A stretch of 64,000 nucleotides of DNA, taken from positions 1,240,001 through 1,304,000 of the forward strand of contig OZ025782.1 of the NCBI GenBank assembly GCA_964019425.1, read 5' to 3'. How positions within the stretch are numbered: position 1 is the stretch's first letter; each line of letters begins with the position of its first letter. The notes beneath the pieces are model-generated. The model was not told the origin of the DNA and did no database searches. It saw nothing but the letters and a program-made list of their open reading frames with translations. Both the position numbers and the translations under genes were made by a program. Positions 16,400-60,187 of the stretch are shown here, piece by piece. This DNA is from Flectonema sp. DT1601 (lineage: Eukaryota > Euglenozoa > Diplonemea > Diplonemida > Diplonemidae).

Positions 16400-17836
16400 C
16401 TACCAGTTGGATCTCGGTCCCCAAACCCCGGAAGAAATCGGAGTGTTTGGCAATAGAACCACCCCAGATATCCAGGGGGTTATTTCAGGTGATGAGGGAT
16501 GTCGTTTTCGAAAGGCAGCGGACTGGACACCTCTCATGTTGACTTCAGGTAATTGTGGATGTTCAGTAAACCGTAGCCAACAATCTCCAGCTGTGTGAGT
16601 GTGAGCATCTGGTTCAAAACAAACAGGTGAATCAACTGGACAATAAACCCATGAATTACAAGGTAAGTTACTACCAACTCCTCCATCAGCACGGGGCTTG
16701 TACCTCACACATGAGAGCGCACATTCTTCAGAAGACGATTTCTTATTTCCAATTCCCCAGAGTACTGTAATTCCATCATACGAAGCATGCTGTTCTCTGT
16801 AGCAGATCATCGTTGATGCAGAGTTAGATTTCATGTATTCGCTGTAAGCTTTGTTCGTATTACTCTCAACCAAACATTTATTTGAAATATTAAGATAGGC
16901 ATTTATTGCTGGGCTACCACAACTTCTTGAAAGGAATGAAGGTGGTTTTGTTTCAGAAGGTAAGTAACTAACATCTCGACAGGTGAAGGAACTGGTATCT
17001 TGCTGTGGATTGTACCGTTGTTTTGATCGGGTAGTCTTTCCAGAAGTCCAGGGATTTCCTGGACCACTACCTCGTAATGGTGTGTTTTCAGGATCACTTT
17101 GATACTTTAGCCAACACTGTTGGTATGTTCCTAATTTTGTACATTTCTTTTCATCAGCGCAGTAGACCCAGGCATTACATTGTGACCCGTCAGTTGCTTC
17201 ATAAGATCGACACTGCTCACAGCAATCTTCAACTGTGGGTAACAAATTATCACTTCCCCACTTCACTACATCTCCTTCTAATTCAACGTTTTGGTGACCG
17301 ACGCAGATTTCTTCTAATTTGACAGTGACTAAAATATCCTGAGGAGGTACAATTCCAAAGTTTGAAGCCGTCAAGGGAAACGAGTCTCGTTCACTACTGG
17401 TCAGTAACTCATACGACATTGACAATATGGTATCATTATTGCATGCTCTGTGTGACTGCAACAAACTAACAAAATCATCAAATGATTTTGATGATGATTT
17501 TAGTTTCACAGCGTACCTCCTTCCAGTAAATTGAATGAGGTAGGTGTGTAGTTGAGTACTACTTTTAAATGTTGGAAGGGATATTTTTGGAGCCCTAAGC
17601 CTCGCTTCTCGTCGTTTTCTAAGAATAACTCTCACTCTCTCAGCGTCGAGGTATCGCTCTTCTGCGACGGCTCGATCTTTTACGTCGTGTAGTTCATCAT
17701 CGGATCTCTGATCAATAAGCTCGGATGTATTCTTACTGTATAAAGTTTCAGAGATGTATTCCCTAACAGATATATACAGTGATACCACTACTAGTATTAG
17801 TATTACCTTACGCCTTGAAGGCATCACCGACGTCAT
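16400..17836 (-). CDS. Type II membrane protein with two PAN/apple-like modules
   Basis: Complete, 478 residues. Residues 10-24 form a single hydrophobic signal anchor after a basic start (MPSRRK), predicting a type II protein with the bulk in the secretory lumen or outside. A charged stretch (about 40-85) includes EERYLDAERVRVILRKRR. Two cysteine-rich modules follow a shared plan: DCCEQCRSY...CNAWVYC...CWLKYQ (about 203-250) and EECALSCVRY...CNSWVYC...CWLRFTE (about 370-430), each ending near a PW-T/I-SG motif. They resemble PAN/apple domains, which bind proteins or glycans. No enzymatic domain is recognised between them. An acceptor (GTTGTAG, AG at 17849-17850) lies 12 nt before the ATG, separated only by an A run. 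The GT92 enzyme at 58733-60187 carries a related module. Confidence 0.75.
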   Translation of the reverse strand: MTSVMPSRRKVILILVVVSLYISVREYISETLYSKNTSELIDQRSDDELHDVKDRAVAEERYLDAERVRVILRKRREARLRAPKISLPTFKSSTQLHTYLIQFTGRRYAVKLKSSSKSFDDFVSLLQSHRACNNDTILSMSYELLTSSERDSFPLTASNFGIVPPQDILVTVKLEEICVGHQNVELEGDVVKWGSDNLLPTVEDCCEQCRSYEATDGSQCNAWVYCADEKKCTKLGTYQQCWLKYQSDPENTPLRGSGPGNPWTSGKTTRSKQRYNPQQDTSSFTCRDVSYLPSETKPPSFLSRSCGSPAINAYLNISNKCLVESNTNKAYSEYMKSNSASTMICYREQHASYDGITVLWGIGNKKSSSEECALSCVRYKPRADGGVGSNLPCNSWVYCPVDSPVCFEPDAHTHTAGDCWLRFTEHPQLPEVNMRGVQSAAFRKRHPSSPEITPWISGVVLLPNTPISSGVWGPRSNW

Positions 17837-45347: not shown

Positions 45348-48300
45348 TTATATGTCTTCGTCTTTAATTGGCTCCTTGTCAGCCATCTCAGAGTATGGTG
45401 TTGTAGGAGCGTCGTCGGCATCCATAGGATCACCTTCGACATTCTCGTCAACCTGCGCATGGAATTGTTTGTTCCACTTCTCATCATCAACGTCTCCTGC
45501 ATTCTTGCGACGACGCCACCACAGTGCCGCCAAGATCAAGAAGCAGCACAGAATAGCTAAGATAATTAACAAAATACACCACCATCCACAGTCATCATCG
45601 TCGTCACCCAAAGCAGCACCAAAGATATTGCTATCGTTAGTTGATAAAGTTAATGTTAGTGTTGGGGTAAGTGTTCTCACTCCGACACAAAGAACTCCGT
45701 TGTGGAAGCAACGTTGCTGTAAATTGCACGTTGACGGGTCGTTGTTCCACCTTCCACAACCATTTGTCGGTGGCTTATCAAGACAGAGAGTGTCGTTGTG
45801 GTAGCAGTCAGCTTGATTATCACAAGTAACGTTGTCATTATTCCATCTCGCACATCCAATAACAGGAGGTGATGTAGTACAGGCAACTCCATCGTGGAAG
45901 CAACCGTCCAATTCATTGCACTTAACTGGCTCATCGTGAAAGTCTGAGCATCTTACTCCAGTGCAGGAAGCAAGGCTCATTGCCTCTCCCTTTCCTACCT
46001 GTGGTGGTAAGCACTCACAGTACCAATCACCTGATGTAGTCTTGTCAGGGTCAACACATTTCTGCTCTTCCACAACACATAATTTCTTACTGGTGCTGTT
46101 TACCTGCTGGCAAGTGTCACAGATGCTGCTGCACTCGTCCTTACCGCAGAGAGCTGGCTCCAACACTGCGCTACCCTGAAGTGGTGCAACACAAACACAT
46201 TCAAATTCAGTTGCTGTTTTTGGAACACAACGCTGTCCAGCATTAGTACAGACTTGTCCCCTCTCAATACAAATTCCAACTTCTTGGCAAACTGCCGCTG
46301 CGGCGGTGGCGTTACCCGTTGCTGGTGCGAAACAGTTGCATCTCCAATCGTTTCCAGCAACCTCATTTCTGTATGGGTCAGTACACTGTTTAGGTTGTGG
46401 ATTTTTAAATAATATTTCAAAAGAAGTAAATAATTAATAACACCAAACTCCAAGTATACATACATATTGACCGTTGTCAGCGCAGACCTTGGCGTTGGCT
46501 GCAACATCACACTCGTTGATGATACAATTCGCAGGCTTCATGAGAGCAGACTCGTCAGGGTTCATTGGACACTGGCACACCCAATCATTGGTGCTGGTAG
46601 TGTATGGGTTTGGATCAACACAAGTCTGCTCATCCCTAACGCAAACCATTTTGTTAGCTTGTCCATCAGTTCCCAGTTGCTCACATTCATTAAGGGCTGT
46701 TTGTTTGTTTTGTTTTGTTATTTATCCAGATTGAGCAGAGTTAACACAGTCTCTCAAGAATAAGTTTTTAATAACAGTTTTTAATAAATATAATAATGAA
46801 ATATTTCAGCAAACTCTTTCACTGAATGAATAAGAAACATACCACAGAGAGCAAGAGCAGCAGCCTGCGATCCAGAACTTGGTGGTGGGCAAGAGCACTC
46901 CCAGTCTCCGAGAGACTTCGATCCGATGTTTGGGTCGTTGCAGAGTTGGCCACCCGCGTAACAAATGTTTCCCTTGCCACTGTTGGCGCACGATGGGCAG
47001 ATGGAAACGCATTCGTCAATTTCACAGATGGCTGGTTCTTTCAAACCGTTGAGTCCGTCCTTTGGTGTGGATGGTTCAACACAAGCACATTCCCATTCAC
47101 CCATTGAAAATCCATCCACGCAGTACTGTCCAGCAGCAGCACATGTGCTTCCGAATTCCGTGCAGGTTGGTGAATCTGGGTGGGTGCAAGTTGCTACTTG
47201 AGCCACAGCACTTCCCTTCGATGGCTCATGGCACTCACACATCCAATCACCCAAAGATGTTGAGAGAGTGTTTGGATCTTTGCAAATCTGTCCGGCATTA
47301 CTGCAAACTGTTCCGTTATACTTACACTCGTCGTAAAAGCATGTTGCGATATCAGTTAATTTCTCACCCTCAGAGTCAACGCAAACACATTTCCAGTCGC
47401 TGTTAGCACCTGGTGACTTATCTGGATCAACACACGTCTGACCGGCATCAGTACAGATGTTGCTGCCGAACTTGATTACTGGTGCGCCAGTTGGAACCGG
47501 TTCATGAACTCCTGTACATCTCTGCTGAGTGGCAGGCTGACACTTGGCTCCTTGTTGCATGTTCCATGCTGATGCTGCGAGGAAACACCAGTCGTACCCA
47601 GTAAAGTCTGGATCACAGCATCCTGAAGTGCAAGGTGTTTTGTATCCTGGTTCACGTGAAGGACCAGGAGTACCATCCCATACCATACTCCATTGACAAG
47701 AGCACTCACATCCATCAACACTGTACCTTGGTCTATGATTACATCCAACAGCTGATGTTTCAGTGCGAACTCTGCACTCATCAAGCATACAAGAATCAAC
47801 TGGTGCAGCAACATTGCTGTCAGATGATGGAGGAGGACATCTACACTGCCAGTCACCTGTTGAAGTCGACGACTCATTTGGTTCGTAGCAAGTCTGTCCA
47901 GCAGCAGTACAGGCGTCTTGTGCTCCGTCAGTCTTCTTTGCGCAGTGTGAACAAACATCAGTACACTCGTTTATAATACAAATAGCTGCCTTCATAGTTC
48001 CTGGTGTTCCGCGTCCTTCTCTGCAGACACACTGCCAGTCATTTGTAATACTGAGATCAGGGTCAACACAGGCCTGCTCAGCACGGATGCAGATAATCTT
48101 ATTTTCTTCTACATCACATTCACCCTTGTACTTACAGACAGCAGGGGCACCAACAGCGAAGCCCTCAGCTGGTGGTGGGCACTCACATTGCCAGTCACCA
48201 AGGGCTGAAGGAGACTGGTTAGGATCTCTACAGTTCTGACCGACAGCAGCGCAAACTCTCTCCTTTTCAATACATTCATCAACAGTACATTCAGCTGCTC

Positions 48301-51300
48301 CAACAAGTTGGGATGGACCTGGAGGGTCAGTGCACGTGCAGGTCCAATCACCCAAAGAATAAGCGGAAGTGTTTGGGTCGGCACATTTCTGTCCAGCGGC
48401 ATTGCAGATTTTCTTTCCAGTGAGTTCACACTCGTCGATGACGCACTTCGCCGCACCAGCAACCTGCTGTCCCTTACTTGGCTTGTTGCATACGCACATC
48501 CAGTCGTTTAGGCTATCAGCAGATTTGTTTGGATCAACACACGTCTGTCCCTCAGCAGCGATACAAGTCTTTTCATTCTGAGTACATTCATCAACAATAC
48601 AAGTAGCTACTCCTTCTTTAGTCATCACACCTTCTGATGGAGGTTGGCATTTGCACCACCAAGTGCTGTCAGCTTCAACGCAAATTTGCTTGGCGGCTTC
48701 GCAAGTGGCAGCACTCTGAGCTGAACATTGGTAAGGTCCACAGCCAGTTGCCTGAGTCATGAGACCAGGCTTGCCAGCAGTTGGGTCGAGACATTGGCAA
48801 ATCCAGTTGTTAAACTTATCAGCAGCAAGTTGCGGATCAATACATTGTTGATTAACACCACAAACTTGAACTCCGACTGGTGAGTTATCAATACTTTTAT
48901 AACATTCATCCAATTCACAAACAGCTGCTGCACCAGTTTGTGGAGATCCAACGTATTCACTCTTACACTCACACTTCCAGTTGTTAAGAGATGTTTTGAT
49001 CTCATCCACACAAATCTGAACAGTGTTACCATCCTTTCCTAATTGAGCTTCACAGATCTTCTTAATGTTTGGATCTTTGCATTCGTCAACTTCACAAACA
49101 GCTGCTGAAGCTGTAGCGTTGATCGCCCTGTTTGTCGGACAGATACAAACCCAGTCGTTGAAACTTCCCACCAACGTATTTGGATCAACACAGAGCTGCT
49201 CATTTAATTTACAAGTGTGTTGCAGAGATCCAGTCTTCTGGGCACAAGTTGGACACTGAACGTTGCATTCATCGATGTGACATTCTGCTGGAACCTGCAT
49301 TCCAGGAACACCTGTTTCAGGTGCTACACATCTACATTCCCAATCTCCAGAAGTCATTACATTAGGATCAAAACAAGTCTGTCCCTTGTTGGTACAAATA
49401 GTTGAAATAGCTGTATCATCGCAGTCTCCGACGTATGTGCAAACAGCTGGTGCTCCAGTTGCTTCACCAACAGCAGGGGACGGGCAGATACACTTCCAAT
49501 CTCCAGAGGACTTGAAGTCATCATTTGGATCGAAGCAAATCTGACCTTCAGCAGTACAGATGCCTTCCCTGTCAATACACTCGTCGTAAACACACTTCTC
49601 TACTACTCCAGCAATCTTTCTACCAGTAGATGGTGGATAACAGTCACAGTGCCAGTCACCTAAAGCTGAGGTACTTGGATCTGGGTCGGTACAACGTTGC
49701 TCCTCGGCAATACAAACGATACCTGGTTGACCAGGTTCGCATTCATTCTGAGTACATTCAGCTGGTCCAAGTGGTTTAGTATTTCCACCAATCAAACACC
49801 TGCATACCCAATCAGATAATCCAGTCACTGGGTTAGTGCTTCCTTCGATACAAGTTTGTTCATTTTGGATACAAACATTTCCAGTTCCAGTGTTAGCACA
49901 AGTAGGACATGTTTCAGTGCATTCATTCAATTCACAAGTTGCAGGCTTTCCAAGAGCATCATCACCAACCTGTGGAGGAATACACATACAGAAACCTGTC
50001 TTTGTGATATCTGGTTGAGCATCTCTACACAACTGTCCAGCGCTGGTACAGATCTGGCTGTTTAAGAAACACCAAGCCTTAGGAGGTTCAACACAGAGAG
50101 CTGGGTTAGTAACATTAGTAGCAGCAGTGTTAACACACTTACAGTACCAATCATTTAATGAACTGCCATCGTGAACAGGATCAATACAAAGCTGACCAGC
50201 TTCATAGCAAACCTTTGACTTGGAAGCATCCTGACACTCGTCAACATCACACACAGCTGGCTTTCCTGATGCTACACCCGATCCTGGGTTGCACTTACAT
50301 TGCCAGTCACCCTTGACCTTAGAGTCAGGATCTTGGCAGACCTGTCCGGCATCAGTGCAAACCTTTCTAATAGACGGGTCTTGGCACTCATCAATTTCAC
50401 AGATATCAACAGGTGCTCCCTGCTTCTCACCAGTTCCAATCATGCAGACACACTTCCAATCGTTAGTTTCAAAGAATGAAGTTGATGACTCTACGCAACG
50501 TTGTTCATTCTGAATACAAACATTTCCGAATCCAGTGTTAGCACAAGTTGGACAAATAGCAGTACACTCATTGAGCTGACAAGAAGCTGCTCTGCCCTGA
50601 GTAGCTGTACCAGTTGCTGGAGGAACACATTCACACAACCAGTCGCCTACTACTTTCACATCAGGGTCAACACACACCTGACCCTTGGCAGTGCAAATCT
50701 GAGAGTTCTTAATATCGTCACACTCACCCTTAAATGTGCAGGTAGCTTTCTTAGCAATTGCTTCACCATCACCTGCCAAACATTTACAAACCCAATCGCC
50801 TGTCTTGTTTGTGTAAGGGTTTGGGTCCTCACACGACTGACCTTCTTCATAACAGGTGTGTCCATTCTTCTTACACTCATCAAGTATGCAAACAGTAACT
50901 CCTCCGTGAATTTCAGGTCCGGTGCTTGGAGGTGGGCAGGTACACTTCCAATCACTAACAGAGTTAGTAGTCTTCTCATTATCAATACAAATCTGACCAG
51001 CCATAGAACAGATATTAACTGGACTATCAGCTGCTAAGAATCCAGAGCTGTTGTCGATGACATTTGGTCCTGGAGCTCCAGCAGGCTTTGGGGTCATTGG
51101 TGAAGTGCAAGTTCCACGAGCTGGATTTTGCATAGTGGCTGCGTTAATCTTTGCCAGACAAGCTGGAAGGTTTTGGTTGTATGAAACCGTAGTATCCAAG
51201 TAACACCACTCTGATGGGCTATTGTCTGTGTTACAGCATCCTCCTGGACAGCGTGCCATGTTACACTCACAGATGCATCCATCAGTGTCAAATCTACGAG

Positions 51301-54300
51301 TAGCCTGACAGTTGTTCGCACCAGTTCCAGCAAAGTCAACACACTCATCAAGTGGACAGTGAGCAACACTTGTAATTCCAATTGTGGACTCGTGAGGAGC
51401 AGCACACTTACAGAACCAATCATTTAATTTATCTGGCTGCTTGTTTGGGTCTTCACAGGTTTGTCCAGCCATAGTACAAACATTACCTCCTCCCTTATCA
51501 GCGCAGCTAGCGCATCCAATAACCTTACACTCGTCCAACAGACAAACAGCTACAGCAGCTACTTGAGTTATGTTCTTGTCACCTGGGCAGATGCACATCC
51601 AGTCATTCAGACTGTCTGCTGCCTTGTTTGGATCTTCACAAGTCTGACCTCCATCAACGCAAATACCTCTCTTTTTCTCACATTCATCAACTTCACATAC
51701 AGCTGGCTTACCCAGAGCAGTTCCAGTCGCAGAACCCTTACAAGTACACCACCAGTCATCAAGGGATGCAAAAGTTGCATTTCTGTCACCACAGATCTGG
51801 TCAGCCCCACAAATGGCGTCGCCCTTGAATTCACACTCATCGTAGTAGCAGCTTGCTGCCACAGCAGTGGCTTGTCCAGTTCCGTTTACGCAAGTACAAG
51901 TCCAGTCACCAAGGTTTCTAGAATCCTTGTTTGGATCGTTACAAAGTTGTCCAGCGGCTTCGCACGCGTTTTGCAATCCAGGCAACTGACATTCATCAAT
52001 CTCACACAGTGCTGGCTTACCGGTTGCCTCGCCGAAGGTTCCAGAAGCCTGACACACGCACTTCCAGTCGTTAATATTTTTATCATCAGGTGTCGGGTCG
52101 ACGCAAGTTTGACCTTCCTTTGTGCACACATTGCTTACAGTTGGTCCCACAATACCTGCGCAGTGAGAGCAAACATCGGATGTCAGAACACATTCGTCAA
52201 GAGGGCAAACAGCTGGGGATCTGACGTTCTTTCCGACTGCAGGAGAAATGCAGTGGCACTCCCAGTCACCAGTTGTTGTTGGATCAGGGTCAACGCACGC
52301 TTGACCTTCTTGGATACAAATTTGTTCGTTGGCAGAGTTTTCACATTCGCTCATTGGTGGCGGAGTGCAAGTGGCAACTCCCTGCATTCCTGTTCCCTGA
52401 CTTGGAGGGACACAGACACAAGTCCAATCACCAGGTGTTGTAGAGGATGGGTCATTACACATCTGTCCAGCCTTGTGGCAAGTGTCTTCGTTGTCGCGGC
52501 ATTCATCCTTCTCGCATGCAGCGGCTTGTGCAACAGCGTAGTTAATTCCACCGCCTCCTATAACGGTGGTAGGAGGTGGGCAAATACATCTCCAGTCACC
52601 AGTACTTTCAGGGGTAGTAATCGGATCAAAACAATCTTGACCTGCTGCCTGACAGACAGCAGCGTGTGGCAAAGTTGAGTTACACTCATCAAGATGACAA
52701 GTTGCCTGTTGGGAAATAGCCATTCCAATAGTTGGAGCCGGGCAAGTGCAAGTCCAGTCGCCATCAACCCCCCGGTTAGGGTCGTTACAAGTCTGGCCGC
52801 TGTTATCTTCTCCACACACATGTGTTGCAGGTGCCTTTGGTGCTGCAATAGCTCCAGCTGGCGGGGTGTTCAGAGGAACACAGAACTGTTTAACATCTTG
52901 TCTACCCAATTCACGGCAGTGCGGCTTATCGCGGTTAGGACCGTTTGGAGATGGGTCGATGTAACAGTAGTCTGTTACTCGGCCGGTGGTATCCTTTGAG
53001 CCGTCGTTGTTGCAGCATCCTCCCCAGCACTTCTCTGTCCAGTCTTGCTTCCAAAACTTCTCCTGCCAGAAGCACTGACATCCACATCCCTCTGTAGTCC
53101 ATCTGTAGAAGTGTCTTCCACAAATGTGAGCTGACTTCTCAGATGGAACAGCGCACTCATCAAGTCCACAGTCGGCGACACCCATCACCTTTCTTGCGGT
53201 CAATGGTGGCTGACAGAGACATTGCCAGTCGTCTGGTGTGGTCAGGCTATCATCCTGACAAATCTGACCAGCGTTTCTGCAAAGCACTCCGTGTTTGTCA
53301 CATTCGTTAATCTCACACACAGCAGCCTTCAAGTATGCAGTTTGAGTGGCTGGCGCCTCACAATTGCACTTCCAGTCGTTGAGTGATGTCGCAGCAATGT
53401 TATCATCAGTACAGGTCTGTCCAACAGCAGTACAAACAGGTCCGTTAACAATACATTCATCAAGGTCACACACTGCAGGCTTGGCGGTAGCTTTACCAGT
53501 TCCCTGTCTGCAATTACATGTCCAGTCCTGTGGCTCTCTTGGATCAGGATCGATACAGTCTTGTTGAGCAGCAGTACATGTAGAACCATGAATAGCACAT
53601 TCATCAACATCACAGATGGCTATCCTTCTAACTGCCTGACCACCTCCATTTGGACACTTACAGATCCAATCATTTAGACTTGAAGGAGAGGTGTTTGGAT
53701 CGACACACTCCTGAGTATCACACTTACCCTGAGCACATGTAGGGCAGCTAGCAGTACATTCATCCAACTTACAAATGGCTGGTCCATTAGTGATAGAAGG
53801 ACCAGTAGATGGAGGAGTGCAGGCACACATCCAGTCACCAAGAACTTTGCTACTTGGGTCAAGGCAACGCTGACCAGCGGCGGTACAAATAGAGCTCTTT
53901 GTAATGTCATCACAGTCTCCAATATTTACACAAGTTGCTGGTTCCAAAACTAGTGATCCATTTGCTGGAGGTACGCATCTGCACTCCCAATCGTTTAGGC
54001 TATTTGCAGTCTTAGTAGGGTCAAAGCAAACTTGTCCTGCTGCTCCACAGATGGATTGTTTCACGGTACACTCATCAAGTTCGCAGTCAGCTGGCTTTCC
54101 AAAGGCAAAGCCAATCTGACCATCCGGACACAAACAGCCCCAGTCGTCAAGGGTCTGGTGGTTTGCATCTTTGCAAGTTTGCCCAGCGTTTCTACAAGTG
54201 TCCTCATTGGCCTTGATAAGACATTCATTAACAGTACAAACAGCTGCTGCAGTAATAGCAGAAGCAGTAGATGGAGCCTTACACTTACAAATCCAGTCGG

Positions 54301-57300
54301 ATAATGATGCGAGTGTTGGTACTGGATCAACACAATCTTGTCCCTTATCAGAACAGGTCGTCTTTGCACAAGAATGGCAATCAGCTGCGCATTCATCGAG
54401 CATGCAGGTAGCAGCTTTTGTAACTCCTGTACCGCTTGCAGGATCGTTACATCTACATTCCCAGTTATCAGAAACTTTCTTGTCAGGGTCAACACAAGTC
54501 TGAGATGGGGAGGCACCAACACAGATGTTTCCAAACTGTTGACATTCATCAACATCACAGTCAGCAACAGCCTGGTTAGCAAAACCTACAGCCGGTGGTA
54601 GACAAGTACACTTCCAGTCGAGCGGCTCTGGTCCGTCAATGCATTTCTGACCGGCAGCGCTACAGATAGTGTTAGTCTTGCATTCATCAATATTACAGTA
54701 AGCAATTGACATTAACTTTGATCCTGTTCCTGGAGCAACACATTCACATCTCCAATCGTTCTTTGTGGTGACATCAGGATCAACACATGTTTGAACTCCA
54801 CACACAGATTGTCCGTTAGGCATAATGCTTGTATCAGTACACTCATTGATATCACAATTAGCAACTGAAGTTAGCATTGTGTTTGCATTAGTAGGGCAAG
54901 TACACCACCAATCACCAGTACTAGTGGGGTCGGTGTTCTTGTCATTACAAGTTTGTCCAGCAGCCTCACAGCGGTTCCTTACATCAACAGCACCTTGTCT
55001 TGCACAGGTAGGGCAAACTACAACACACTCATCAAGTATACAATCAGTTGATGTTGTTAATGATCCAGGAGTACCAGTTTGTGGAGCTTTACAGCGACAC
55101 TCCCAGTTGCTTGCTACTTTGTGGTCAGGGTCGACGCATTCCTGTCCAGCGGCACTGCATGTAGTTCCGGCACAGGTGGTGCAATTAGCAACACATTCAT
55201 TTGTTTCACAAGCAGGAACTGGTCCTCCATTCATAACTCCAGATGCAGGAGGAAGACATCTACACTGCCAGTCATTAGTAGTTGTAACGGAAGGGTCATG
55301 ACACTCTTGACCTGCTGGACAAGTGTTAGCTGCTATAGAACATTCATCAACTGTGCAACTAGCAACTACGTTAGCCTGTGCTTGGTTGGTTGATGGAGAG
55401 CGACATTTGCAAACCCAATCGTTTATGTACGCAGCATCAGTTGACCCTTCAACGCAGTCTTGACCAACTGCACTGCAGTTCTTGGCACCAGATGCACAGT
55501 GATCACAAACCGTGTTACATTCGTCTAATTGACAGCTAGCGTAAGCGATAGCTTTAGAACCAACAGCAGGTGCCGTACATCTGCACTCCCATGTGTTTGT
55601 TGTAGACTTGTCGGTATCTTGGCAAGTCTGCCCAGCATTCTCACAGGTTAGCTTGTTGCAAGTGTGACAGTTAGCTGTACATTCATCAAGTTCGCAAACG
55701 GCAGCAACCTGATTTCCTGGAGTAACAGTTGTCCACCCCGGAAGACAAACGCATGTCCAGTCACCCAACATATTTGGATCTGGATCAACACATGTTTGTC
55801 CAGCAGCAGAGCAAACAGCGACATTCATAGCATCTAAGCAATCCCCTGTTGCCATACAAGTAGCTGGTCCCTGGTTACCAGCAGTACCAGTAAGTGGAGC
55901 AACGCATTCACAGATCCAGTCATTCTGAACAGCCGTGTTAGGGTCTGAACAAGTTTGTCCTTGATCAGTACAGATCTTTTCGTTAGTGGCATCACATTCA
56001 TCTTCAATACAGGTGGCGGCCTGAAACTTTCCAGGAGCACCAGTCATTGGTGGGATGCACTCACACTGCCATTCTGGCTCAAATGGACTTGGTTGAACAC
56101 AGTTCTGCATAACCGCTGAGCAAATGGTGTTGTTCGCGCATTGGTCTACTGGACAGGTTGCAACACGAGCAATTGCTCTGTTGGTTAATGGATCTGGACA
56201 CTTGCACTGCCAGTCACTAGTTGAGGAGTCAGTCTTAACAGGGTCAGTACATATTTGACCGGCAGCAGTGCAGACATTTCCACTTCCGGTGTCCGCACAG
56301 TGAGAGCAAACAACTTGACACTCATCCAAAACACACTGCGCTGGAGCACCCAAGCTAGTAATCGAGTCAACTGGAGGTGGGCACTTACACCTCCAGTCGC
56401 TGAGTGAGTCAGCAGAATCATTTGGATCTTCACAAACCTGACCAGCAATCGTGCAAACGTCAGTTGGGTTACCAGGAGCCTTAGCACATGTTGTACAGTC
56501 AAAATTGCACTCGTTCAGTCTGCAGTCAGCTACAACTTGATTACCATCAGCTCCCGTCTGAGGAGATTTACACTTGCAAACCCAGCTGTTGTCAACTTTT
56601 GTGTCTAAATCTTCACACACCTGCCCTTTGGCTTCACAAGTGGCTCCGTTAGTTACACACTCATCATGTTTGCAATCAGCTGGTACCATTACAGCATTAG
56701 TTCCAATGTTTGGGAACGTACACTGACATTCCCAATTGTTTAAGTGATCTTGGTTAGTGTCAATACACGTTTGTCCCTGATCAGTACAGATTTTACTCTT
56801 AGCGATGTCTTTACACTCGTCTTCAGTAGTGATACAAATAGCTGCTGCTATAGTGTTTTCAGTTTTACCATCAGGGCAGATACAAACCCAGTCATTAATA
56901 GAGTTGGCGTTGGTGTTACGATCTTCACAAGTTTGCATAGCCAACCTACAAATATCTTGCTCACAGTGAGGACAAAGAATATCACATTCATTAAGTTCAC
57001 AGTCAGCGATTCCCTTGTCTTTGAAACCAGTTGCTGGAACCTTACACTTACAACGCCAAGTTCCTAAAGTTGTTCTGTCAGTATCTTCACAGACCTGGTC
57101 TGCAGTGTCGCAGGTGGCCTGCTTGTCAAGACACTCATCGAATTCACATGTTGCTGGTTTCATGACAGCAGTCTGACCAGTAGGACATTTACAAATCCAA
57201 TCACCACTTTGAGAAGGGTTTGGATCTTCACAAGATTGACCCTGGGCGGTACAAACGTTTTCATTGACAATGCATTCATCTTCAACACATGCAGCAACTC

Positions 57301-58117
57301 CCATCAGTGCCTCTCCCTGAGCTGATCCCTTGCACTGACATTTCCAATTTTTGTGTACTTCATCTGAGCCTTCGATACAGACCTGACCATTTACCTCACA
57401 AATGTTACCGTTACCGTCTCCCTTATCAGCGCAATGGGTACAGGCAGTTGTACATTCATTAATCTTACAAATAGCACGTCTTCCAGTAGCCTCACCCTGG
57501 TATGGAGTTGGGCAAGCACACTTCCAGTCACCAATGCTCGTAGGGCTCGTAGTTGGGTCACTGCAAGTCTGAGTAAGTGTACCAGTGCTACAGAAGCTGT
57601 TCCCATACTCAGTACATTCATTGAGGGTGCAGGTAGCAACATCCCACATTTCTGGAGTTCCTGTGGCTGGCGCGATACAGTGGCACTCGATACTTTCCCT
57701 GTCCGGCATCTCACATCTCTGACCCTGGGCTGTACACAATGAACCTGAAGTAACACAAAGTTGACCAAGAGGAGTTTGTGGAACACAGACAGCTGGAAAT
57801 CCTACCATAGGAGTACCGTCGTATAAAGTAGGGCAACTGCAAGTAAAGTCGTTGGTTTTCGTTTTGTCAGGGTCGGAACACGTCTGACCAGCTTTTGCAC
57901 AGACATCATTATGCATGCATTCATCGTATTCACAAACAGCTTTAACCATCTCTCCGATTTGTGTGGCTGGCGCTTGGCAAACACACTGCCAATTTCCATC
58001 AGTTTCTGGATCCGGGTCCTGGCAAACCTGGTCAGTAGTACCACACACGCTACCGTTTTGAAAACACTCATCAGCAGCCATGGCTACCGCAAACAAGGTA
58101 GCGACGATTACTCTCAT
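45348..58117 (-). CDS. Giant EGF-like-repeat type I membrane protein, three exons
   Basis: Exons 58117-46843, 46696-46464 and 46385-45348 join in frame to 4181 residues; introns are 146 and 78 nt with GTATGT donors. The reading across both junctions restores the repeat consensus (ALNECEQLG, then NGQYCTDP). Signal peptide MRVIVATLFAVAMA. I count about 68 six-cysteine repeats of about 47 residues with the plan DEC...C...GQxC-x-DP...DWxCxC-xPxxG...AxC, an EGF-like arrangement. Three copies of another cysteine module are inserted in repeats 32, 41 and 61. After the array come three short copies of the motif C-x-R/D-x-x-x-WNND...C...CYHN...C, then one transmembrane helix (CILLIILAILCCFLILAALWW) with a stop-transfer RRRK and an acidic 60-residue cytoplasmic tail. 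It is probably a very long adhesion or surface-coat molecule, extending perhaps 100-200 nm if rod-like. No AG acceptor is clear upstream of the ATG. Confidence 0.93.
47510..47755 (-). other. Inserted cysteine-rich module, copy 3
   Basis: Placed within repeat 61. Plan: VGC, 9 residues, GCECSC, a long loop, PCTSGCC, then DWCFL, ending AKCQPATQQRC. Confidence 0.7.
51105..51325 (-). other. Inserted cysteine-rich module, copy 2
   Basis: Placed within repeat 41. Plan: NNC, 9 residues, GCICEC, CPGGCC, then EWCYLD, ending with ACLAK...GTC. The same cysteine spacing as copies 1 and 3, with a shorter central loop. Confidence 0.7.
52880..53130 (-). other. Inserted cysteine-rich module, copy 1
   Basis: Placed within repeat 32. 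Plan: HIC, then 10 residues, GCGCQC, a Trp-rich stretch, CWGGCC, then DYCYID and two further Cys. Absent from ordinary repeats. Confidence 0.7.
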
Positions 58118-58732: not shown

Positions 58733-60187
58733 CTAACAAGAATCTCTGATTGGAGTTCCAGAAATGTAGCCATCGACTGACTTTCTGTCTAATGGTATCG
58801 AATGAGGTGGCCAACTATGAGAAGAAGATACAAACAGTGAACACATATCGTGTGATGGTCGGTAAGTGAAAGCGCGACAGGTAGAGTTGTGATAACAAAG
58901 TGAACAACAAACAGCAGCTGAACTAATAAAATCTGAAATATCAACAACCGCAGTACCAGAACGAGGTGTGTAACGAAAGCTTCGTTCTGTGAAGCAGTCA
59001 AAGTTCGTTTGATTCGAAATAGAAATTGTTTCAACATTTGTCAACTGAGAAACACTACCAGCATCAGTCTTACGTAAGGCATTTCTCAGACGTTTTGCAT
59101 ATTTTAGAATACCTGGACTGTATACCCAATTGAGATCTCGTTTATCCATTTGAGGTGTTTGGTTTCTGTCATTGTGAAGTCCATTCCTCATCTTTCTTAC
59201 AGACCTCCATCTTCGAGCTTCCTGACTCTTTGGTGCGTAGTGCTGAAGAGCAATACCTGCCTTACAACACTTCTTAGGATCTGCGATGTCCTTATTGTGA
59301 TAAAACCATAATTTACAATCATCGTTAACATCCGACTCAGACTGAGGACTGCTACAATTCCCCAACGTGAGTTCTAATCTGCTGGGGAAGTGGTTTGCAC
59401 AATGTTCGTTACTTGGCATACAGTTCATATTCGCAATGTATTTGGTATGTCTACATTCTTTACAATGTCCATTAAAAGGTTGACAAGAAACCCCCCAAAT
59501 ATCAACGTATTGTGAACAATCACCTCCAGACAACAAGAAGTTTTCTGTTAGTAATCCAGGAGGATGTAATAAAAAGTGATTAGAACCAAACATTTCCCAA
59601 TCAAGTAAAAAATGGGTGGATTTTTGATTACATTGTCTAATGTGCTGAGAAAGAGAACATCCTTGACGAGGGAAAATATATTCATCGGAATCAACTAAGA
59701 CAAGCCAGTCTAACTTATGCCTCGCGAATTCGATACACTTGGATATGTATGCGCTGTCACGTGCTGTTGGTTTCTGACAGCGGGAATCACCTTCAGGAAC
59801 ACTTCCAGGGATAAGTTGGATGAAATTATTATTTTTTTCAGAATAAGACTTTATTATCGAAAGAGTTTCGTCAGTACTGTTGTCATCGATTATAAATATC
59901 TTCTCAATGCCGACTAGTTTATGAAACTCAATCCATTCACGAAGCCATCTCCCGTCGTCCTTTACAGAGAGACAAATACCTAAAAAAGATTTTTTATCGT
60001 CTTGGTGATCTGTTTGAGTATCGAGATGAACTGATCTTTTATTTTGTGCATCGATGATGGAATTTGTTGCCTGTTTGACGCCTGCCCCCATCAACAACAC
60101 CCCTACCAGGGTCACCACAACAGCAGAGGCTACCAGGACATAAAGTTTTGGGAGTTTAAAAGTTACCTTTATGGGAGATCTTCCCAT
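58733..60187 (-). CDS. GT92-type glycosyltransferase with C-terminal PAN-like module
   Basis: 484 residues. ATG at 60187, 3 nt after a TTTAGCAG acceptor (AG at 60191-60192). One N-terminal membrane helix (about 14-36) makes it a type II Golgi-style enzyme. The catalytic part (about 65-330) begins FLGICLSVKDDGRWLREWIEFHKLVGIEKIFIIDDNSTD and has LVLVDSDEYIFP with the metal-binding DSD at 166-168, both characteristic of GT92 (DUF23) galactosyltransferases. Later segments (FHFLLDWEMFGSN-like, CCKAGIALQHYAPKSQEARRW) also fit. A C-terminal module (about 397-484) has CCSLCYHNSTCRAFTYRP...CSLF, a PAN/apple-like domain that may bind the acceptor glycoprotein. GT92 enzymes usually add beta-galactose to N-glycan cores. 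The PAN tail is not usual in the animal enzymes I know. Confidence 0.88.
   Translation of the reverse strand: MGRSPIKVTFKLPKLYVLVASAVVVTLVGVLLMGAGVKQATNSIIDAQNKRSVHLDTQTDHQDDKKSFLGICLSVKDDGRWLREWIEFHKLVGIEKIFIIDDNSTDETLSIIKSYSEKNNNFIQLIPGSVPEGDSRCQKPTARDSAYISKCIEFARHKLDWLVLVDSDEYIFPRQGCSLSQHIRQCNQKSTHFLLDWEMFGSNHFLLHPPGLLTENFLLSGGDCSQYVDIWGVSCQPFNGHCKECRHTKYIANMNCMPSNEHCANHFPSRLELTLGNCSSPQSESDVNDDCKLWFYHNKDIADPKKCCKAGIALQHYAPKSQEARRWRSVRKMRNGLHNDRNQTPQMDKRDLNWVYSPGILKYAKRLRNALRKTDAGSVSQLTNVETISISNQTNFDCFTERSFRYTPRSGTAVVDISDFISSAAVCCSLCYHNSTCRAFTYRPSHDMCSLFVSSSHSWPPHSIPLDRKSVDGYISGTPIRDSC

Follow-up and report, generated by a model that had tools for sequence, protein, structure and literature searches.

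The super-repeats of titin and nebulin set a second-level period over a first-level repeat, the units being cytoskeletal Ig/Fn3 or actin-binding repeats. In animal arrays of epidermal growth factor (EGF)-like domains, some junctions are flexible and others rod-like, according to the excerpts available here of studies on fibrillin (FUN-EGF3; PMC3794157) and LTBP1 (PMC3906135), and the available part of Schaper et al. (2014; PMC3995336) describes deeply conserved protein tandem repeats in which unit number and order are preserved over long times. The present study concerns a gene for a 4181-residue protein with 68 EGF-like repeats, found in a 64,000-nucleotide stretch (the window) of the diplonemid Flectonema sp. 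DT1601 (GenBank assembly GCA_964019425.1, contig OZ025782.1, positions 1,240,001 to 1,304,000), whose genome assembly comprises 89.5 Mb in 92 contigs. As in titin and nebulin, this array carries a second-level period, here of four repeats. The reading that we favor, with confidence a little above even, is that the protein is a giant membrane-anchored stalk in which typed EGF-like modules stand in a frozen order, with joint repeats at special spacings.

Repeat types and gene model

Cysteine parsing resolves the array into 68 repeats, each with six EGF-type cysteines, a C4-x-C5 element, and a short linker between C6 and the next C1. The number of cysteines rises to eight in 18 repeats and to 16 in three, and 56 of the 68 begin with D/N-E-C (hereafter DEC). 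We distinguish plain DEC repeats; joint repeats, which lack DEC and have a longer linker; CxxC repeats, which have two extra cysteines; and repeats that bear an inserted 10-cysteine module. The predicted ectodomain would be a stalk built of these four types.

Two of the markers follow a period of four. CxxC occurs in repeats 5, 8, 11, 12, 16, 17, 19, 20, 24, 28, 36, 40, 44, 48, 52, 60, 64, and 68, that is, at 14 of the 17 multiples of four (all except 4, 32, and 56), with extras at 5, 11, 17, and 19. Starts other than D/N-E-C occur in repeats 3, 13 (DQC), 15, 27, 35, 43, 47, 51, 55, 59, 63, and 67, 11 of the 12 at 3 modulo 4; the six remaining phase-3 repeats (7, 11, 19, 23, 31, and 39) do start with DEC or NEC. 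An earlier note, made from the sequence alone, had put forward the 68 repeats in a 4181-residue protein, the CxxC pairs at multiples of four with these three gaps and four early extras, and the DEC-less starts at 3 modulo 4. The two totals and the CxxC counts proved exact, and the last statement holds with repeat 13 as its exception. The same note's figure of about 190 residues for a four-repeat unit was too low, the 14 module-free blocks measuring 202–231 residues, about 215. Tallied by phase, the counts are 2, 0, 2, and 14 for CxxC and 2, 0, 11, and 0 for non-DEC repeats, the latter with repeat 1 left out and repeat 9 included, because the longer linker of repeat 9 (a DEC repeat without a module in the window) brings the scripted count to 13, as against 12 by start. 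Neither concentration was matched in 20,000 shuffles (p = 5e-5), and a chance origin of the pattern is thus rejected. The markers are also coupled, for in 9 of 13 cases the repeat directly after a non-DEC repeat is of the CxxC type (expectation 3.4, p = 3.5e-4). Along the array toward the membrane, the phase-3 joints are spaced 12, 12, 8, 8, 4, 4, 4, 4, 4, and 4 repeats apart.

The gene lies on the minus strand, with its ATG at 58117, its stop ending at 45348, and two short introns (46842..46697, 146 bases, and 46463..46386, 78 bases) inferred from GT-AG ends and from the repeat spacing that splicing restores. The minus-strand open reading frame 58117..46781, which corresponds to exon 1, accounts for 3778 residues. 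From the N to the C terminus the layout is a hydrophobic N terminus, the 68-repeat array, a short cysteine-rich stretch, a hydrophobic 19-mer, and a 57-residue tail. By hydropathy alone, the signal-like N terminus and the one C-terminal hydrophobic segment suggest a secreted, membrane-anchored protein of type I. The features of the gene are as follows:

45348..58117, minus: whole gene model; each of its 68 repeats has a partner in P0002, a transcriptome-derived homolog of 4214 residues
58073..58117, minus: signal peptide-like N terminus, judged from its hydrophobic stretch alone
45963..58072, minus: array of 68 EGF-like repeats, by cysteine parsing
57629..57784, minus: repeat 3, the first non-DEC (joint) repeat; non-DEC in 19 of the 19 covering relatives
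49754..50398, minus: repeats 45-48, a complete four-repeat block of 215 residues with joint repeat 47 and CxxC repeat 48
49094..50398, minus: repeats 45-52, two successive blocks, used as structure-prediction input (low-confidence model)
45672..45956, minus: membrane-side cysteine-rich segment of three short units, two of the C-x-RWNND type, from sequence
45510..45578, minus: predicted transmembrane helix, then a short acidic tail; hydropathy 3.41 over 19 residues

Order of repeat types in relatives and paralogs

A protein search returned 56 matches at E 0.001, one of them the window's own protein. Homologs with an organism name are all from Diplonema papillatum; two others are labelled Hpha, which we take to stand for Hemistasia phaeocysticola, and others are EukProt and ENA records. 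Some proteins of one family may share a species. When the homologs are written as strings of repeat types, 20 fall in the family of the window protein. Aligned repeat by repeat, 12 of these 20 relatives show no repeat insertion or deletion and 16 at most one, P0016 being the worst with eight. In P0002, all 68 repeats pair at 77% identity; in the other 19, paired repeats have an identity of 0.41–0.46 versus 0.38–0.41 for unpaired ones. With repeat 1 left out, the 20 relatives together give 1219 positions for comparison; the CxxC state is that of the window at 1159 of these, and the DEC state at 1179. The claim that the pattern has been kept is therefore upheld by a barcode that is nearly unchanged, and the repeat count holds its register. 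This bears on the possibility of an assembly or counting artefact: repeats often break assemblies, but both count and register equal those of the transcriptome-derived P0002, and the repeats are too dissimilar among themselves to collapse easily, which leaves such an artefact barely credible.

The differences that do occur are concentrated. Repeats 4 (19 differences), 37 (18), and 56 (16) account for 53 of the 60 CxxC differences, nearly all relatives having CxxC there and the window and P0002 lacking it, as P0026 also does at repeat 56; P0006, P0007 (DIPPA_70101b of D. papillatum), and P0038 contribute the remaining seven, some of which fall at gaps in the alignment. Repeat 13 accounts for 18 of the 40 DEC differences. 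At repeat 32, CxxC is present in 0 of the 18 covering relatives. Apart from P0026 at repeat 56, the gaps at repeats 4 and 56 are therefore specific to the window's lineage. Provided that the family is not rooted on the branch of that lineage, they are more simply explained as a loss of CxxC there; in the tree, from which the partial P0032 and P0038 were left out, deep branches are poorly supported (0.48–0.50). For every phase-3 joint, at most one of the relatives that cover it fails to be non-DEC. Relatives have a further, module-bearing joint at repeat 9 that splits the first interval into 6 and 6. With the starts and the C1-C2 loops removed, the register test recovered the same offset in 7 of 7 relatives tested (of the 20; P0002 is a trivial member, being 79% identical), and the next-best offsets were mostly multiples of four away.

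The inserted module, with ten extra cysteines in the pattern C.C.C ... GCC ... C, occupies the first half of its EGF-like repeat and occurs three times in the window:

52697..53167, minus: repeat 32 with module; of 18 relatives with coverage of this site, P0002 alone shares it with the window
50888..51355, minus: repeat 41 with module; 18 of 19 relatives
47339..47788, minus: repeat 61 with module; 16 of 18 relatives

The copies common to most relatives (repeats 9, 41, and 61) all stand at phase 1 of 4. The module had no Pfam match up to E 0.5, its PDB matches all had E above 1, and of the 58 matches listed from its own genome none beyond the window extended over its first 86 residues.

Each of four paralogs in this genome (L037–L040) has its own repeat-type string. 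Joints recur every two to three repeats in L037 and L038 and every three in much of L039; in L040 the spacing alternates between three and four and then becomes three. Conservation of order was tested in the family of the window and in that with the L038 order. The latter recurs at 50 of 50 positions in P0010 (labelled Hpha), P0020, P0027, and P0033, at 49 of 50 in L037, P0017, P0019, and P0024, and at 36 of 37 in P0036, in each case exceeding the protein's own shuffles (at most 39 of 50); P0019 and P0027 are possibly proteins of the same genome under another record, which makes their independence uncertain. For P0030, agreement with the family-C order is 33 of 37, a level that its best shuffle reaches as well. 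The two paralogs that share this order are located as follows:

C58:423501-433500: paralog L037, joint order as in L038 at 49 of 50
C59:657501-667500: paralog L038, joint order as in L037 at 49 of 50

The joint type itself appears to be shared between families. Joint repeats of the window score 62.7 against joint and 56.7 against plain repeats of family C, and 69.4 against 59.3 for family D; its plain repeats show the opposite preference, scoring 61.2 against joint and 68.0 against plain repeats of family C, and 64.3 and 70.1, respectively, for family D. Judged from these scores, the repeat types seem older than the split of families A, C, and D, with family B an exception.

Similarity between repeats and the origin of the period

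Within the window, mean identity of repeat pairs is 0.376 at offsets that are multiples of four and 0.364 at others (permutation p = 2e-4), a small effect. Period 4 scores best among periods 2–16 (z = 5.9; runner-up period 2, z = 3.9), and the top single offsets are 4, 8, and 16 (z = 2.7, 2.5, and 1.9). Higher identity had been predicted at offsets 4, 8, and 12; on the whole this was borne out, for 4, 8, and the multiples overall, with offset 12 by itself weak in the window (z = 1.0), below offsets 7, 9, 14, and 17. When both markers are masked by restricting the scan to the C3-C6 half of each repeat, 8 of the 21 family proteins being used, every multiple of four from offset 4 to offset 32 has a positive value, and period 4 reaches z = 7.7. 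Only phases 3 and 0, the non-DEC and CxxC classes, contribute to this masked signal. Unmarked repeats (n = 31) have no same-phase excess (z = 0.29, p = 0.32, in a test of limited power at this divergence), and phases 1 and 2 alone give z = 0.13 (n = 29). Some memory persists in unmarked repeats, because orthologous ones score 9–17 units above non-orthologous ones in the four relatives, of the 20, that were tested. The array therefore resembles a super-repeat in that similarity is slightly higher at multiples of the super-period, and departs from one in that not every block position resembles its phase mates, the unmarked repeats reaching z = 0.1–0.3.

These results bear on two alternative origins of the period. 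One holds that four-repeat blocks were duplicated in the past without higher-order function and that the marks persist for needs within their own repeat. The positive masked offsets fit this account, as does the fact that the signal is strongest in repeats 41–68 (z = 5.0, compared with 1.6 in repeats 1–20, 1.4 in 13–40, and 2.1 in 21–44). Fresh blocks also exist in other arrays. An open frame of 18,591 residues (C59, about 377–399 kb) has, where sampled, an identity of 0.80 at offset 6, 0.70 at offset 3, and about 0.46 at offsets other than multiples of three, which makes the sampled part a young six-repeat higher-order array; L040 reaches 0.54 at offset 7, in seven-repeat blocks. Block copying thus occurs in the superfamily. 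However, phase memory is absent in unmarked repeats of the window array, its joints are spaced at 12 and 8 before 4 and not uniformly, and joint types match in two of the three paralog families, so that the types may predate the array. We regard this account as unlikely, though worth keeping in view. The earlier note's claim of growth through the copying of four-repeat blocks is accordingly weakened, not established, since similarity at offset four is confined to marked repeats. Block copying remains plausible for this array, but its traces would have been erased, or the copying would have been older or of a different kind; had it happened, it predates the spread of the family or was succeeded by retyping. 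Recent amplification of the array was considered and rejected.

The other alternative is that typed repeats were placed or converted singly, under selection for a period of four and without block copying. The restriction of phase similarity to the marked classes agrees with this, and repeats 4, 37, and 56, which differ singly, indicate that repeats can change type one by one; but many independent changes would be required, and the paralogs show block copying. We consider this origin improbable, and more so than inherited blocks.

Uninterrupted frames of EGF-like repeats, 10,470 to 18,591 residues long, lie elsewhere in the same genome. Several of them share a contig at even spacing and have the same match scores, which suggests gene copies. 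Besides the frame on C59, their locations are:

C3, about 1,367-1,445 kb: outside the window, three frames, each with 12,447 residues
C10 (four), C23 (three), C31, C56 (two), and C70: further giant frames

Within the window, the adjoining gene (58733-60187, minus strand) encodes a glycosyltransferase family 92 protein with a PAN domain, and a second PAN-domain frame lies at 16400-17836.

Joint repeats, the predicted stalk, and known systems

Joint and plain repeats differ in their linkers. In the family counts, which concern related repeats rather than independent cases and leave out units with unusual cysteine numbers, the C6-C1 linker of DEC repeats (n = 1051) is exactly four residues long in 99%, and the position two residues after C3 (C3+2) is acidic in 100%. 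In the non-DEC repeats at 3 modulo 4 (n = 196), the linker has 5–7 residues in 97%, the C3+2 acid is present in 68%, and G replaces D/N in about half. Calcium-binding EGF (cbEGF) domains are characterized by D/N-x-D/N-E/Q before C1, D/N at C3+2, and an aromatic residue before C4. In the 54 DEC repeats counted in the window, C3+2 is D in 91% and E in 9%, and the residue two before C4 is W in 98%; a parser without module merging found the C3+2 acid in 51 of 53. We take the non-DEC repeats to be a different kind of joint, perhaps one without calcium.

On the favored reading, the window protein would be one of a diplonemid superfamily of giant membrane proteins, probably of type I, with a predicted location at the cell surface. 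The order of types would be fixed and family-specific, kept most simply by purifying selection while the remaining sequence diverged; in the window's family this order has a period of four, a joint repeat and then a CxxC repeat. Most likely, interdomain packing, perhaps together with calcium, would stiffen the plain junctions, and those that precede joint repeats would differ in geometry or flexibility. In the available excerpt on fibrillin, the seven-residue linker of EGF1-EGF2 is described as flexible and a cbEGF domain is taken as 2.7 nm long, a non-calcium EGF domain as 2.1 nm (PMC3794157); on these lengths, 55 DEC and 13 other repeats are estimated to span about 176 nm. The molecule may therefore be pictured as a segmented rod of roughly 180 nm, its special joints denser toward the membrane, and it may serve in adhesion or as a spacer. 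What the sequences show directly is how the types are ordered, that this order is conserved, and that the linkers differ; secretion, the membrane anchor, calcium, the mechanics of the joints, selection as the cause, and the adhesion or spacer role are inferred. A precomputed VWA domain is found in 8 of the 20 relatives and a laminin-G domain in one, as would be expected if the stalk carried a binding head; no binding-head domain was found in the scanned part of the window protein, the exon-1 frame. P0012, P0014, P0015, P0018, P0021, and P0025, of 5,867–6,497 residues, have a VWA domain and a cysteine-rich stretch before the array, both of which the window protein lacks. A second protein search with a six-repeat fragment as query had as its sole match one D. 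papillatum protein, at 27% identity.

Several observations weigh against this reading. A clear C-terminal transmembrane segment is present in 8 of the 20 relatives, doubtful in two, and lacking in ten, perhaps because those gene models are cut short. AlphaFold models have low mean predicted local distance difference test (pLDDT) scores, 44.8 for repeats 45-52 (with six in-phase window blocks as alignment) and 36.2 for repeats 60-62 with the module (three alignment rows). Joint repeats of the window show no preference for the joint type in family B (66.4 against joint, 67.9 against plain). Position -4, the acid of the classical calcium motif, is unconserved in the 54 window DEC repeats (E in 28%, D in 9%), and the contrast in acids between joint and plain repeats is weak in the window taken alone (p = 0.06 and 0.05). 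Joint repeats of the paralog families mostly retain the C3+2 acid (20 of 21, 19 of 22, 14 of 14, and 16 of 19), so calcium loss at joints is not general, and that idea is weakened. In the excerpt available on LTBP1, the five-residue linker of EGF3-cbEGF15 is not flexible (PMC3906135); together with the acid kept in paralogs, this means that the joint could be a fixed bend, not a hinge. Finally, conservation of the marks could reflect a need within their own repeat and not order as such.

A bolder proposal, which we hold tentatively and at somewhat less than even odds, is that diplonemids make very long stalks at the cell surface from a limited set of EGF-like types, the order of which is a heritable, family-specific "sentence" under selection that encodes the sites of joints along the rod (here 12-12-8-8-4-4-4-4-4-4 toward the membrane), the mechanics residing in order and not in sequence. 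In this family, the repeat types have kept their arrangement and the repeat sequences have drifted almost to background, a natural situation that can help to tell selection on order apart from selection on sequence. In addition, the growth and the freezing of arrays can be compared side by side among several paralogs of one genome, where periods of 2–3, 3, and 4 occur together with young blocks of 6 or 7 repeats. Literature searches, in which most subscription journals fell outside coverage and long result lists were partly covered, found no description of this protein or pattern, and a wide search on surface proteins of diplonemids gave mostly unrelated papers among those listed; in the text of PMC10161547, "EGF" and "Notch" each have 0 occurrences.

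Among known systems, the EGF and cbEGF arrays of Notch, fibrillin, and LTBP-type proteins share with the window protein the tandem EGF units, the C-x-C core, the D/N-E-C starts, and the short linkers. Some D. papillatum homologs are labelled "Neurogenic locus Notch protein," a database name, and membership among Notch receptors was rejected: no LNR or ankyrin family was found at E 0.001 in the exon-1 frame (exons 2 and 3 unscanned), and the tail after the transmembrane segment has 57 residues. Unlike the animal arrays, the window protein has a linker of four residues, a C3-C4 loop of about 13 residues usually ending in D-W-x, an extra CxxC type, an inserted 10-cysteine module, and a periodic order of types. 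It also differs in that no Pfam family at all was matched at E 0.001 in the 3778-residue exon-1 frame, and PF07645 (EGF_CA) reached 14.7 bits in repeats 45-50, below its cut-off of 27. In contrast to the units of titin and nebulin, its repeats are disulfide-rich and probably extracellular. Compared with deeply conserved tandem repeats, this family keeps the order of its repeat types while the identity of the units has decayed close to background.

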